Below, one piece after another: positions 7,508 to 9,823 of a DNA stretch of 64,000 nt (its first letter is position 1; the number at the start of each line of letters is the position of its first letter). Under the pieces are notes generated by a model, which made no database searches, was not told the origin of the DNA, and saw only the letters and a program-made list of their open reading frames with translations. Source of the stretch: Amycolatopsis lurida (GTDB taxonomy: Bacteria; Actinomycetota; Actinomycetes; Mycobacteriales; Pseudonocardiaceae); NCBI RefSeq assembly GCF_900105055.1, contig NZ_FNTA01000004.1:1550001-1614000 (forward strand). The letters run 5' to 3'. Both the position numbers and the translations under genes were made by a program.

Positions 7508-8311
7508 ATGCCCGAAGGCGACACCGTCTTCCTCGCCGGCAAGGTCCTCGACAAGGCACTGGCCGGGAAGACCCTGCTGCGAGGCGAGTTCAGGGTCCCT
7601 CAGCTGGCCACGACGGATCTCGCCGGACGTGACGTGCTCGGCGTCGGCACGGTCGGCAAGCACCTGCTGACCCGTCTCTCCGGCGATCTCACCCTCCACA
7701 GCCATCTGCGCATGGACGGCAAGTGGGACGTCTACCGGGCGGGCGCGCGCTGGCGGCATCCGGCGCATCAGGCGCGGGTCATCCTGGCCACCGAAGATCT
7801 GCAGGCGATCGGCTTCCGCGTGCACGACCTGGAACTCGTGCCCACGGACGAAGAACACCGCCTGGTCGGACACCTCGGCCCCGATCTGCTCGATCCACAA
7901 TGGACGGACGAAACCGCGGAACGCGCGGCGGCGGCGCTGGCCGCGGACCCGGATCGCGAACTGGGCGACGCCCTGCTGGATCAGCGGATCATGGCGGGCA
8001 TCGGGAACATGTACAAGGTCGAGATGTGCTTCCTGCTCGGCGTCACACCATGGACACCGGTGTCCGAAGTGGACCCGGCGAAGGTCGTCGCGCTCGGCCG
8101 CAAACTGCTGAAGACCAACGCCTGGCACACCTCGCAGACCACCACCGGTGATCTGCGCCGCGGCCGTGAACACTGGGTCTACGAACGGACCAAACAGGGC
8201 TGTTTCCGCTGTGGCGGACGGCTCAAGGTCGCTCCCCAGGGTGCCGGACACCAGGCGAGGCCGACGTGGTTCTGCCCGAAATGCCAGTCCGGGCCCGCCC
8301 CGAACGGCTAA
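7508..8311 (+). CDS. nei: Fpg/Nei-family DNA glycosylase (endonuclease VIII type)
   Basis: 267 residues. The mature N terminus PEGDTVF supplies the catalytic Pro2 and Glu3 typical of the Nei branch (Fpg enzymes start PELPEV). The helix-two-turn-helix region is GDALLDQRIMAGIGNMYKVEMCF, and a C-terminal zinc finger has Cys232, Cys235, Cys256 and Cys259. The enzyme excises oxidised bases and nicks the abasic site. It is most like the actinobacterial Nei2 subgroup. Its stop codon TAA is part of the TAAGCT promoter box of the next transcript. Confidence 0.92.
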   Translation: MPEGDTVFLAGKVLDKALAGKTLLRGEFRVPQLATTDLAGRDVLGVGTVGKHLLTRLSGDLTLHSHLRMDGKWDVYRAGARWRHPAHQARVILATEDLQAIGFRVHDLELVPTDEEHRLVGHLGPDLLDPQWTDETAERAAAALAADPDRELGDALLDQRIMAGIGNMYKVEMCFLLGVTPWTPVSEVDPAKVVALGRKLLKTNAWHTSQTTTGDLRRGREHWVYERTKQGCFRCGGRLKVAPQGAGHQARPTWFCPKCQSGPAPNG

Positions 8312-8314
8312 GCT
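8309..8314 (+). promoter_or_regulatory. -10 box TAAGCT for a leaderless small ORF
   Basis: TAAGCT matches the actinobacterial TANNNT extended -10 consensus and ends 6 nt before GTG 8321. Transcription is therefore predicted to start at or next to that GTG. Confidence 0.55.
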
Positions 8315-8320
8315 GGCGTC

Positions 8321-8383
8321 GTGACGCTGTTCAAGCTCCCGCTCTACGGGGCCGACACCGAACGCGGCGACCTCGCTCCCTGA
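8321..8383 (+). CDS. 20-residue leader ORF upstream of add
   Basis: GTG 8321 to TGA 8381-8383 encodes VTLFKLPLYGADTERGDLAP. It sits directly after a leaderless-type -10 box and has high G/C third positions. Its last codons and stop (GCTCCCTGAG, 8375-8384) are the exact reverse complement of 8422-8431, which contains the ribosome-binding site of add. Translation of this ORF would therefore be expected to open the stem and free that site. I know of no named family for the peptide. It could instead be a chance ORF, but the coincidence of promoter box, stop codon and stem argues against that. Confidence 0.5.
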   Translation: MTLFKLPLYGADTERGDLAP

Positions 8384-8431
8384 GCCGCCCGTTCCCTCCG
8401 CACGTCACCTTTGTCTTCTCTCTCAGGGAGC
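8375..8431 (+). promoter_or_regulatory. stem sequestering the add ribosome-binding site
   Basis: Perfect 10-bp inverted repeat GCTCCCTGAG (8375-8384) and CTCAGGGAGC (8422-8431), loop 37 nt. The right arm includes the GGGAG ribosome-binding site of add; the left arm includes the stop codon of the leader ORF. This is the geometry of a translation-coupled attenuator. Confidence 0.55.
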
Positions 8432-8437
8432 TTTGTC

Positions 8438-9487
8438 ATGCCCGGAATCCTCACGGGCACGGCGCTGCGCGCGTTCGTGCACGCCCTGCCCAAGGTCGAA
8501 CTCCACGTCCACCTCGTCGGTTCGGCGAGCCTGCCCACGGTGCTGGAACTGGCCCGCCGCCGCCCGTCCGCAGGTGTGCCGACGGAACCGGCGGCGCTCG
8601 CCGGGTTCTTCACCTTTCGCGATTTCCCGCATTTCCTCCGCAACTACCTCGCGGTGACGTCGCTGGTGCGCGACGCCCGCGACATCCACACCCTCGTCAC
8701 CGGACTGGCGGCGGATCTGGCCGCGCAGAACGCGCGCTACGCGGAAGTGACCGTGACGCCGTACAACCATGTCCTCGACGGGATGTCGACCGACGATCTC
8801 CTCACCGGTCTCGCGACCGGGCGGGCGGCGGCACGGGCGGACCACGGAGTGGAACTGGCCTGGTGCTTCGACATTCCCGGCGAGAAAGGGGTCGTCGCCG
8901 GCCGGGAGACGGTGGTGTTCGCGCTCCGCGAACGCCCCGAAGGCCTGGTGTCCTTCGGGCTCGGCGGCCCCGAGGTCGGCGTCGGCCGCGCGCAGTTCGC
9001 CCCCTTCTTCACCGCGGCCAGGGAGGCGGGGTTGCACAGCGTCCCGCACGCGGGTGAGACCACCGGCCCCGCCACCGTCTGGTCGGCGGTGCACGATCTC
9101 GGCGCCGAGCGGATCGGGCACGGCATCGGCGCGCACACCGATCCGGCGCTCCTGGAATACCTTGCCGTGCAGCGGATCCCGCTGGAGGTCTGCCCCACGT
9201 CGAACGTGCGGACCGGGCAGTGCGCTTCGATCGCGGCGCATCCCGTGCGACGGCTGCTGGATCACGGCGTGCTGGTGACGCTCAACACCGACGACCCGCC
9301 GATGTTCGGCGCGACCCTCGACGGCGAGTACGTGGCGGTGGCCGAGACCCTGAGCCTGACGGCGGCCGAAATCGCCCTGTTCGCGAAGAATGCCGTGGAC
9401 GCCTCTTTTCTGCCGTCGGCGGACAAGACCGTCCTGAGGACGGAGATCGAAGAAATCTTGTTGCCGGACCCCGAACTCCTCGCATAG
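8438..9487 (+). CDS. add: adenosine deaminase family protein
   Basis: 349 residues from ATG 8438 (GGGAG 7 nt upstream). Zinc and catalytic motifs of the adenosine/adenine deaminase superfamily are visible: KVELHVHLVGS near residue 20, PHAGE (catalytic Glu), ERIGHGIGAHTDP and TLNTDDPPMFG (Asp pair). It hydrolytically deaminates adenosine or a related purine in salvage. The family also contains adenine and aminofutalosine deaminases, so exact substrate is not proven. The start further upstream at 8411 has no ribosome-binding site. Expression is probably controlled by the leader described above. Confidence 0.85.
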   Translation: MPGILTGTALRAFVHALPKVELHVHLVGSASLPTVLELARRRPSAGVPTEPAALAGFFTFRDFPHFLRNYLAVTSLVRDARDIHTLVTGLAADLAAQNARYAEVTVTPYNHVLDGMSTDDLLTGLATGRAAARADHGVELAWCFDIPGEKGVVAGRETVVFALRERPEGLVSFGLGGPEVGVGRAQFAPFFTAAREAGLHSVPHAGETTGPATVWSAVHDLGAERIGHGIGAHTDPALLEYLAVQRIPLEVCPTSNVRTGQCASIAAHPVRRLLDHGVLVTLNTDDPPMFGATLDGEYVAVAETLSLTAAEIALFAKNAVDASFLPSADKTVLRTEIEEILLPDPELLA

Positions 9488-9488
9488 C

Positions 9489-9640
9489 GTGGCGGTACAC
9501 GAGAGAGGAGGTGGTCCAAAGTTGTATTCCAACAGGACTCGTGAGGTGGCTGTCCGCTAGCGGACCCCACGCGTAGGACTTCAGAGCAGCGATACAACGC
9601 AAGTTGGAGCCACCTTCGGCTCGTCGTCTCTGCTTCGCGT
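9489..9640 (+). ncRNA. putative structured RNA element or leader with a super Shine-Dalgarno
   Basis: Non-coding by frame analysis but highly structured. A long-range stem joins GGTGG (9510-9514), CCAA (9516-9519) and GTTGTAT (9521-9527) to ATACAAC (9592-9598), TTGG (9604-9607) and CCACC (9610-9614). Inside lies a hairpin GTGG-CT-GTCCGC-TA-GCGGAC (9546-9565) closed by CCAC (9567-9570). The segment 9502-9517 (AGAGAGGAGGTGGTCC) can pair over all 16 nt, with two G-U pairs, to the 3' end of actinobacterial 16S rRNA. A 23-codon frame runs from GTG 9489 to TAG 9560 and a 12-codon TTG frame starts 9-10 nt after the GGAGG. No Rfam family is recognised by eye. Confidence 0.45.
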
Positions 9641-9654
9641 GATGCCTGATAGCG

Positions 9655-9718
9655 AATACCAGGCAGTCACCGGGCCCCCGAGGTTCCCGAGCACCGGTCC
9701 GGCTCGGGCCCGGCCGCC
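9655..9718 (+). terminator. hairpins downstream of the structured element
   Basis: An imperfect G/C-rich stem pairs the CGGGCCCCCGAG segment starting near 9671 with CTCGGGCCCG near 9703-9712. A smaller GCCTG/CAGGC hairpin lies just upstream. Together they could end the transcript that starts after add. The remaining sequence to 9823 shows only the leaderless promoter of the next gene (TAGCCT at 9812-9817). Confidence 0.35.
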
Positions 9719-9823
9719 GATTCCGGCGTCCGGGAGCCGCCTCGGGGGTACCCCTATTTCCGAGGTGTGCCGTCCACCGCGATTCCGCCCCAAGAACCTC
9801 GCCGACTCCGATAGCCTGACGCC

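Follow-up and report, generated by a model that had tools for sequence, protein, structure and literature searches.

A stop-adjoining leader peptide motif precedes adenosine deaminase and MFS transporter genes in actinobacteria and may regulate them as a nascent chain

In leaders of the SecM, ErmC, and Cat type, a stalled ribosome opens the ribosome-binding site (RBS) of the downstream gene. We know of few metabolite-sensing arrest peptides, and these sense amino acids or related amines. The add gene of Vibrio vulnificus is under the control of an adenine riboswitch, and PbuE belongs to the MFS class of transporters. In Bacillus subtilis, an adenine riboswitch precedes pbuE, which encodes a purine efflux pump (PMC7707468). 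TnaC, the leader peptide of tnaCAB in E. coli, arrests at its stop codon with free L-Trp. For this arrest the residue at −12 must be aromatic, and Asp is needed at −9 and Pro at −1 (PMC8429421, PMC10941005). SpeFL is an ornithine-sensing peptide that undergoes termination arrest before speF and induces the enzyme for its ligand (PMC8429421). ApdA, an arrest peptide from actinobacteria, has been studied from Amycolatopsis japonica (PMC7897499). A leaderless mRNA arrangement is common in mycobacteria, and mycobacterial leaderless upstream ORFs (uORFs), such as the cysteine uORF before cysA2, feature clusters of one amino acid (PMC4633059).

The leader described here precedes add in Amycolatopsis lurida. 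The window is the whole 64,000-nucleotide stretch of DNA that was analysed, and the features of the locus are as follows.

7508–8311, plus strand: nei2-like gene, the upstream neighbour, encoding a Nei2-like DNA glycosylase (Pfam and NCBIfam searches)
8309–8314, plus strand: −10-like box TAAGCT, whose TAA is the stop codon of the nei2-like gene
8321–8383, plus strand: leader ORF of 20 codons, MTLFKLPLYGADTERGDLAP, with its GTG start at 8321–8323 and its TGA stop at 8381–8383
8333–8340, plus strand: alternative arm AAGCTCCC, also able to pair with the RBS (GGGAGCTT) in the predicted fold
8336–8380, plus strand: conserved 15-residue C-terminal motif xPLYGxDxxRxD[L/F]A[P/W], adjoined by the stop codon
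8375–8384, plus strand: anti-RBS arm GCTCCCTGAG, made up of the final two codons, the stop codon, and one base
8422–8431, plus strand: RBS arm CTCAGGGAGC, which contains the add Shine-Dalgarno sequence
8438–9487, plus strand: add, encoding an adenosine deaminase of 349 amino acids, with its ATG at 8438–8440

The box, the GTG, the 20-codon ORF, the TGA, and the 10-bp repeat had been reported in an earlier sequence-only reading, and direct inspection of the sequence found their coordinates exact to the base. The TAAGCT box and the leader GTG are separated by 6 nt. The add product matches Pfam A_deaminase (8.5e-89) and scores over the cut-off of TIGR01430. The Nei2-like glycosylase is a divergent member of its family, with a score of 258.6 against the 400-bit cut-off of NCBIfam endonuc_Nei2. 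The nei2-like gene is dispensable for the leader, as several relatives have the leader with no such gene found beside it. Fusion of the leader to add, or read-through between them, was considered, since both are in frame in the window, yet this was rejected because the spacing shifts by single bases among relatives. An Rfam search gave no match at the window leader up to an E of 1 and none at the gathering score in related loci, and a purine riboswitch or other known RNA element was rejected on this basis.

The leader shares with TnaC a short length, a Pro at the stop codon, and a catabolic enzyme as its target. Compared with the E. coli record sequence, the add and MFS leaders feature Tyr at −12, Asp at −9, and Pro or Trp at −1, with the same spacing as TnaC. 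The TnaC-essential Trp12 (−13) and Ile19 (−6) are replaced by Leu and Arg. Thus, of the TnaC-family residues Trp12, Asp16, Ile19, and Pro24, the Asp at −9 is present and the Pro at −1 is present in P-type leaders only, and the leader family is not a TnaC because Trp −13 and Ile −6 are missing. It also differs from TnaC in allowing Trp for the final Pro and TAG or TAA as stop codon, and TnaC blocks Rho, whereas here the RBS is masked and the mRNA is probably a leaderless actinobacterial one. The proposed termination arrest, which would induce the enzyme for its ligand, sets the leader beside SpeFL by description and not by sequence; SpeFL acts with RF1 and ornithine, whereas the ligand of the add and MFS leaders is putative. 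As with the SecM, ErmC, and Cat-type leaders, the RBS is sequestered with the leader region and is expected to open when the ribosome is held. The leader differs in its expected stall site, which is the stop codon, in having no secretion signal, and in its targets, add and an MFS gene. ApcA and ApdA are likewise arrest peptides of actinobacteria with conserved C-termini, but they are >100 aa, are membrane or secreted proteins, are located 5′ of yidC or secDF, and undergo elongation arrest. The mycobacterial uORFs resemble the leader in being small ORFs that open an operon before a metabolic gene, and the leader differs in having a fixed sequence motif and stop. The adenine riboswitches share its two kinds of target, an adenosine deaminase and a transporter, which in their case is a purine exporter; here the leader is protein-coding and there is no purine aptamer.

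The best overall explanation is, on balance, that the leader is a stop-codon arrest peptide that unmasks the RBS, perhaps with an adenosine-like ligand. In this mechanism, the product of 8321–8383 would be a nascent peptide that regulates by arrest at its stop codon. Transcription would start at or beside the GTG, so that ribosomes load straight onto the leader. A ribosome held at the stop codon would, given the observed position of the anti-RBS strand and the general size of a ribosome footprint, cover that strand, leaving the RBS of the target gene, which is add or, in Micromonosporaceae, the MFS gene, free for translation. When termination is quick or the leader is untranslated, the helix would form and translation of the target would be low. 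The trigger may be adenosine, adenine, or a nucleoside antibiotic, which the deaminase would convert or the transporter export. Ribosome stalling at the leader stop codon is itself quite probable, judging from the sequence comparisons.

The transcript start is suggested by a [T/C]AnnnT hexamer. Of 153 loci, 142 have this hexamer 5–8 nt upstream of a leader start codon that is in frame; where several starts are possible, the one having the better hexamer was chosen. With standard promoter geometry, this spacing places the expected 5′ end of the mRNA at the start codon, which implies that initiation on the leader would be leaderless.

The leader is widespread before add. It is present in 48/48 of the near-full-length Amycolatopsis add orthologues that were fetched, the one in the window included; for this set, 80 species genomes were searched with the Add protein and loci were fetched at ≥73% identity. 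An Add homologue of 54% identity within Amycolatopsis is without the leader. A sample of 30 Pseudonocardiaceae add homologues, picked by the Add protein alone and independently of the leader, features the leader at 21 loci and nothing similar at 9. The leader similarity scores in this sample are all-or-none and fall into two separate groups (≥46 and ≤20). The leader search matches 23 of 47 Pseudonocardiaceae genera, some of them with weak or broken copies. A degenerate-pattern scan of 84,980 species genomes resulted in 72 loci, in Pseudonocardiaceae and in many Micromonosporaceae (Actinoplanes, Micromonospora, Asanoa, Catellatospora, Phytohabitans, and others). The leader also precedes add in Haloactinopolyspora and Allonocardiopsis. 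In total, 153 distinct loci were assembled, of which 110 are before add and 43 are before an MFS gene; the scan pattern preset several residues, so residue frequencies of this set are biased, whereas those of the add-anchored set are not. A search for paralogues in the window's own genome gave one match in all, and a phylum-wide scan with a narrow pattern gave the window's own match alone. Four matches to a class-wide pattern, in three genomes of family f19 and one of f20, were rejected as ordinary coding sequence within other genes. The genome samples are uneven, and absence beyond the named families depends on narrow patterns.

Several loci feature decaying copies. The leader is fused into a deleted add at locus L093, a second leader is frame-shifted at L115, and the stop codon is lost at L089, where reading continues for six codons. 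At L065 an intact leader precedes a broken add. Locus L147 (JOAA01000014.1), titled Rhodococcus rhodnii NRRL B-16535, features a Kibdelosporangium-type leader and add, and the record looks mislabelled.

Most leaders of the 153 loci are 18–50 aa long, well below the length of ApcA and ApdA, and the N-termini are unrelated and variable in length. The stop codon immediately follows xPLYGxDxxRxD[L/F]A[P/W] in 151 of the 153 loci, so that, as in arrest peptides, the distance from the conserved C-terminus to the putative stall codon is fixed. In 19 add-anchored leaders the residues at −14, −12, −11, −9, −6, −5, and −4 are invariant. Mean pairwise differences among the add-anchored leaders are 2.7, 2.9, and 7.4 at codon positions 1, 2, and 3, and within the seven invariant residues they are 0.11, 0, and 2.92. 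The changes are mostly at the third position; therefore selection acts on the peptide sequence, and the leader is almost certainly a selected, translated peptide. Selection at the amino acid level that goes beyond the RNA is also characteristic of arrest peptides. In Amycolatopsis leaders the codons are unusually conserved (0.058 compared to 0.280 in the start of add), and the same is true of the P-ending add and MFS leader groups. The W-ending leaders show ordinary synonymous variation, with codons that vary as in add (0.38 compared to 0.34). This split is consistent with two overlapping constraints, one on the peptide everywhere and one on an RNA arm in the P-ending groups. TGA, TAG, and TAA all occur as leader stops, and because both RF1 and RF2 codons are included, the general mechanism cannot be a block of one particular release factor. 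The leader at locus L124 (genome G371) has two extra codons after the motif (DLAPCR-stop) and is a natural test of the importance of the stop position. Three versions of the leader gave no Pfam or NCBIfam match.

The second target of the leader is an MFS transporter gene. In Micromonosporaceae the same type of leader, for example MIPLEAVAAAYAQWITPDLPLYGNDHERADFAP, precedes this gene and not add, and the gene neighbourhoods of the leader-MFS pair are varied. Family libraries place one of the transporters in the general drug/H+ antiporter type and give another no name. Comparison with the purine exporter NepI was used to look for a purine function of the transporter; a profile built from 39 of the MFS proteins did not match NepI, and the comparison gave no support for this function. 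Since the MFS profile is unlike NepI, a purine ligand is suggested by the add targets and by analogy alone. The analogy is to TnaC and SpeFL: each controls a gene whose substrate it senses, which favours an adenosine-like trigger. Such a compound is the leading guess because the deaminase and MFS targets recall add and pbuE, the targets of adenine riboswitches. An adenosine-like ligand is the weakest step, possible but doubtful. The combined proposal, that these are leaderless stop-codon arrest peptides that sense an adenosine-like metabolite in the ribosome and induce a deaminase or an exporter, is somewhat unlikely; if true, it would be a protein-based counterpart of the adenine riboswitch.

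The drug/H+ antiporter type of the MFS protein and the varied neighbourhoods of its gene would also fit a drug-sensing arrest peptide, one that responds not to an adenosine-like compound but to some other class of ribosome-targeting antibiotic and induces a resistance-like MFS exporter or the deaminase. The leader motif bears, to our knowledge, no resemblance to known macrolide arrest motifs, and adenosine-like nucleosides aside, we know of no antibiotic that is countered by both adenosine deaminase and this MFS protein. This explanation is unlikely. uORFs that respond to ribosome-targeting drugs have been described (PMC12121999), which is in its favour.

The leader can also pair with the RBS. 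In the window, 8375–8384 and 8422–8431 form a perfect 10-bp inverted repeat over the add RBS. The longest helix between the segment around the RBS and the upstream 90 nt is this length of 10 bp, a length reached once when the upstream strand is shuffled 5000 times and equalled at 0.5% of window positions. The local hairpin has an energy of −17.3 kcal/mol (z −2.57). Taken alone the 10-bp helix is only moderately unusual; the comparisons across loci are much stronger evidence than these statistics from a single sequence. In P-ending leaders, GCTCCC pairs with GGGAGC as the core. At add loci this pairing usually runs on into the stop codon (TG to CA, about 95% paired), whereas at MFS loci it extends the opposite way (TC to GA, 70–79% paired). 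The W-ending Actinokineospora leaders use GACCTC with GAGGTC, located farther upstream. Tamaricihabitans and a metagenome-assembled congener pair the bases right after the stop codon, as CUCCUGCGAU/AUCGCAGGAG and CUCCUGAC/GUCAGGAG, and the differences between these two congeners are compensatory. The pairing energy of RBSs with their own leaders is −14.6 kcal/mol compared to −12.1 ± 0.5 kcal/mol when permuted, and 0 of 20000 permutations are as good; the permutation groups were defined after the sequences had been viewed and the starts were chosen partly on RBS strength, so this figure is a guide. Both the permutation test and the compensatory change in the congeners therefore find that the downstream RBS pairs with the leader, which is what RBS unmasking entails. 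Loss of the leader frame or of the stem in close relatives had been named beforehand as evidence against the switch; instead, the frame and the RBS-sequestering stem are conserved in relatives and covary.

The position of the anti-RBS strand varies across lineages, from about −13 to +17 nt around the stop codon. This span is approximately the reach of one terminating ribosome. The earlier proposal, in which add is opened when a ribosome reaches the leader stop, would fit this pattern, since the strand shifts yet stays within ribosome reach. With a ribosome on the stop codon, the predicted probability that the RBS is unpaired rises modestly, from a mean of 0.20 to 0.30; for the add RBS in the window the prediction is 0.195 when the leader end is covered, compared to 0.001 when it is exposed. 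Kibdelosporangium, Lentzea, and one Actinoplanes group have weak RBS pairing. In Actinoplanes loci L135, L140, L148, L185, and L194, the gap from the leader stop to the MFS start is 111–145 nt and there is no clear anti-RBS, with the peptide fully conserved; regulation in this group may proceed through a different RNA structure. The alternative arm AAGCTCCC was rejected as the main regulatory arm and is treated as secondary, as it is limited to Amycolatopsis relatives and the majority of leaders outside Amycolatopsis lack it; the sequence at this place is AAGCTGCC in most other genera.

The conserved RBS helix at the leader end, together with a gap from leader stop to target start that is mostly 48–65 nt, is also what would be seen with ligand-free translational coupling, in which completing the leader is enough for a ribosome to melt the helix and help the next one to initiate on add, whatever the peptide sequence. 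The delivery of ribosomes downstream by leaderless uORFs has been discussed for mycobacteria (PMC4633059). Coupling needs neither seven invariant residues with varying synonymous codons nor a fixed distance from motif to stop, and it is quite unlikely as the full explanation of the locus.

The strong conservation of amino acids could instead reflect a free functional small protein that is co-expressed with add or the MFS gene and does not act in cis as a nascent chain. This is very unlikely, as the N-terminus is variable, conservation is confined to the last 15 residues, the stop is fixed, and the leader keeps a constant place shortly 5′ of two unrelated targets with whose RBS it pairs. The leader with its alternative pairing superficially resembles an amino acid or tRNA supply attenuator, in which the ribosome is slowed at scarce leader codons; this reading is extremely improbable and was already disfavoured, because no version of the conserved part has a run of a single residue and the codons at the conserved residues vary. 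Of the two inputs to the leader that the sequence-only reading had offered, codon supply is accordingly unlikely, with no repeated amino acid and varying synonymous codons, and an effect of the peptide or of a ligand is favoured. Delayed termination of the leader by its own peptide is the favoured reading because it accounts for the fixed stop, the constant place, the RBS pairing, and the invariant residues together.

A literature search found no description of this leader family, which is weak evidence because subscription papers were mostly outside its scope. It is apparently an undescribed family of arrest-type leader peptides with a new motif and new targets. The stop-ending motif is common to enzyme and transporter genes in two actinobacterial families; it provides a defined sequence for stalling tests and a short list of candidate ligands, and the two gene groups gain a likely switch. 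Natural variants (a P or W end, three stop codons, and shifted RBS partners) are available for the study of the mechanism. The family also points to leaderless uORFs as possible carriers of real nascent-chain information.

Directly 3′ of add, the window features a match to the Rfam family RF02471 Ms_IGR-5, an actinobacterial small RNA, at 9497–9755 on the plus strand (E 6.8e-17, over the gathering score). The region of this match contains a 12-codon frame, LYSNRTREVAVR, with a TAG stop.
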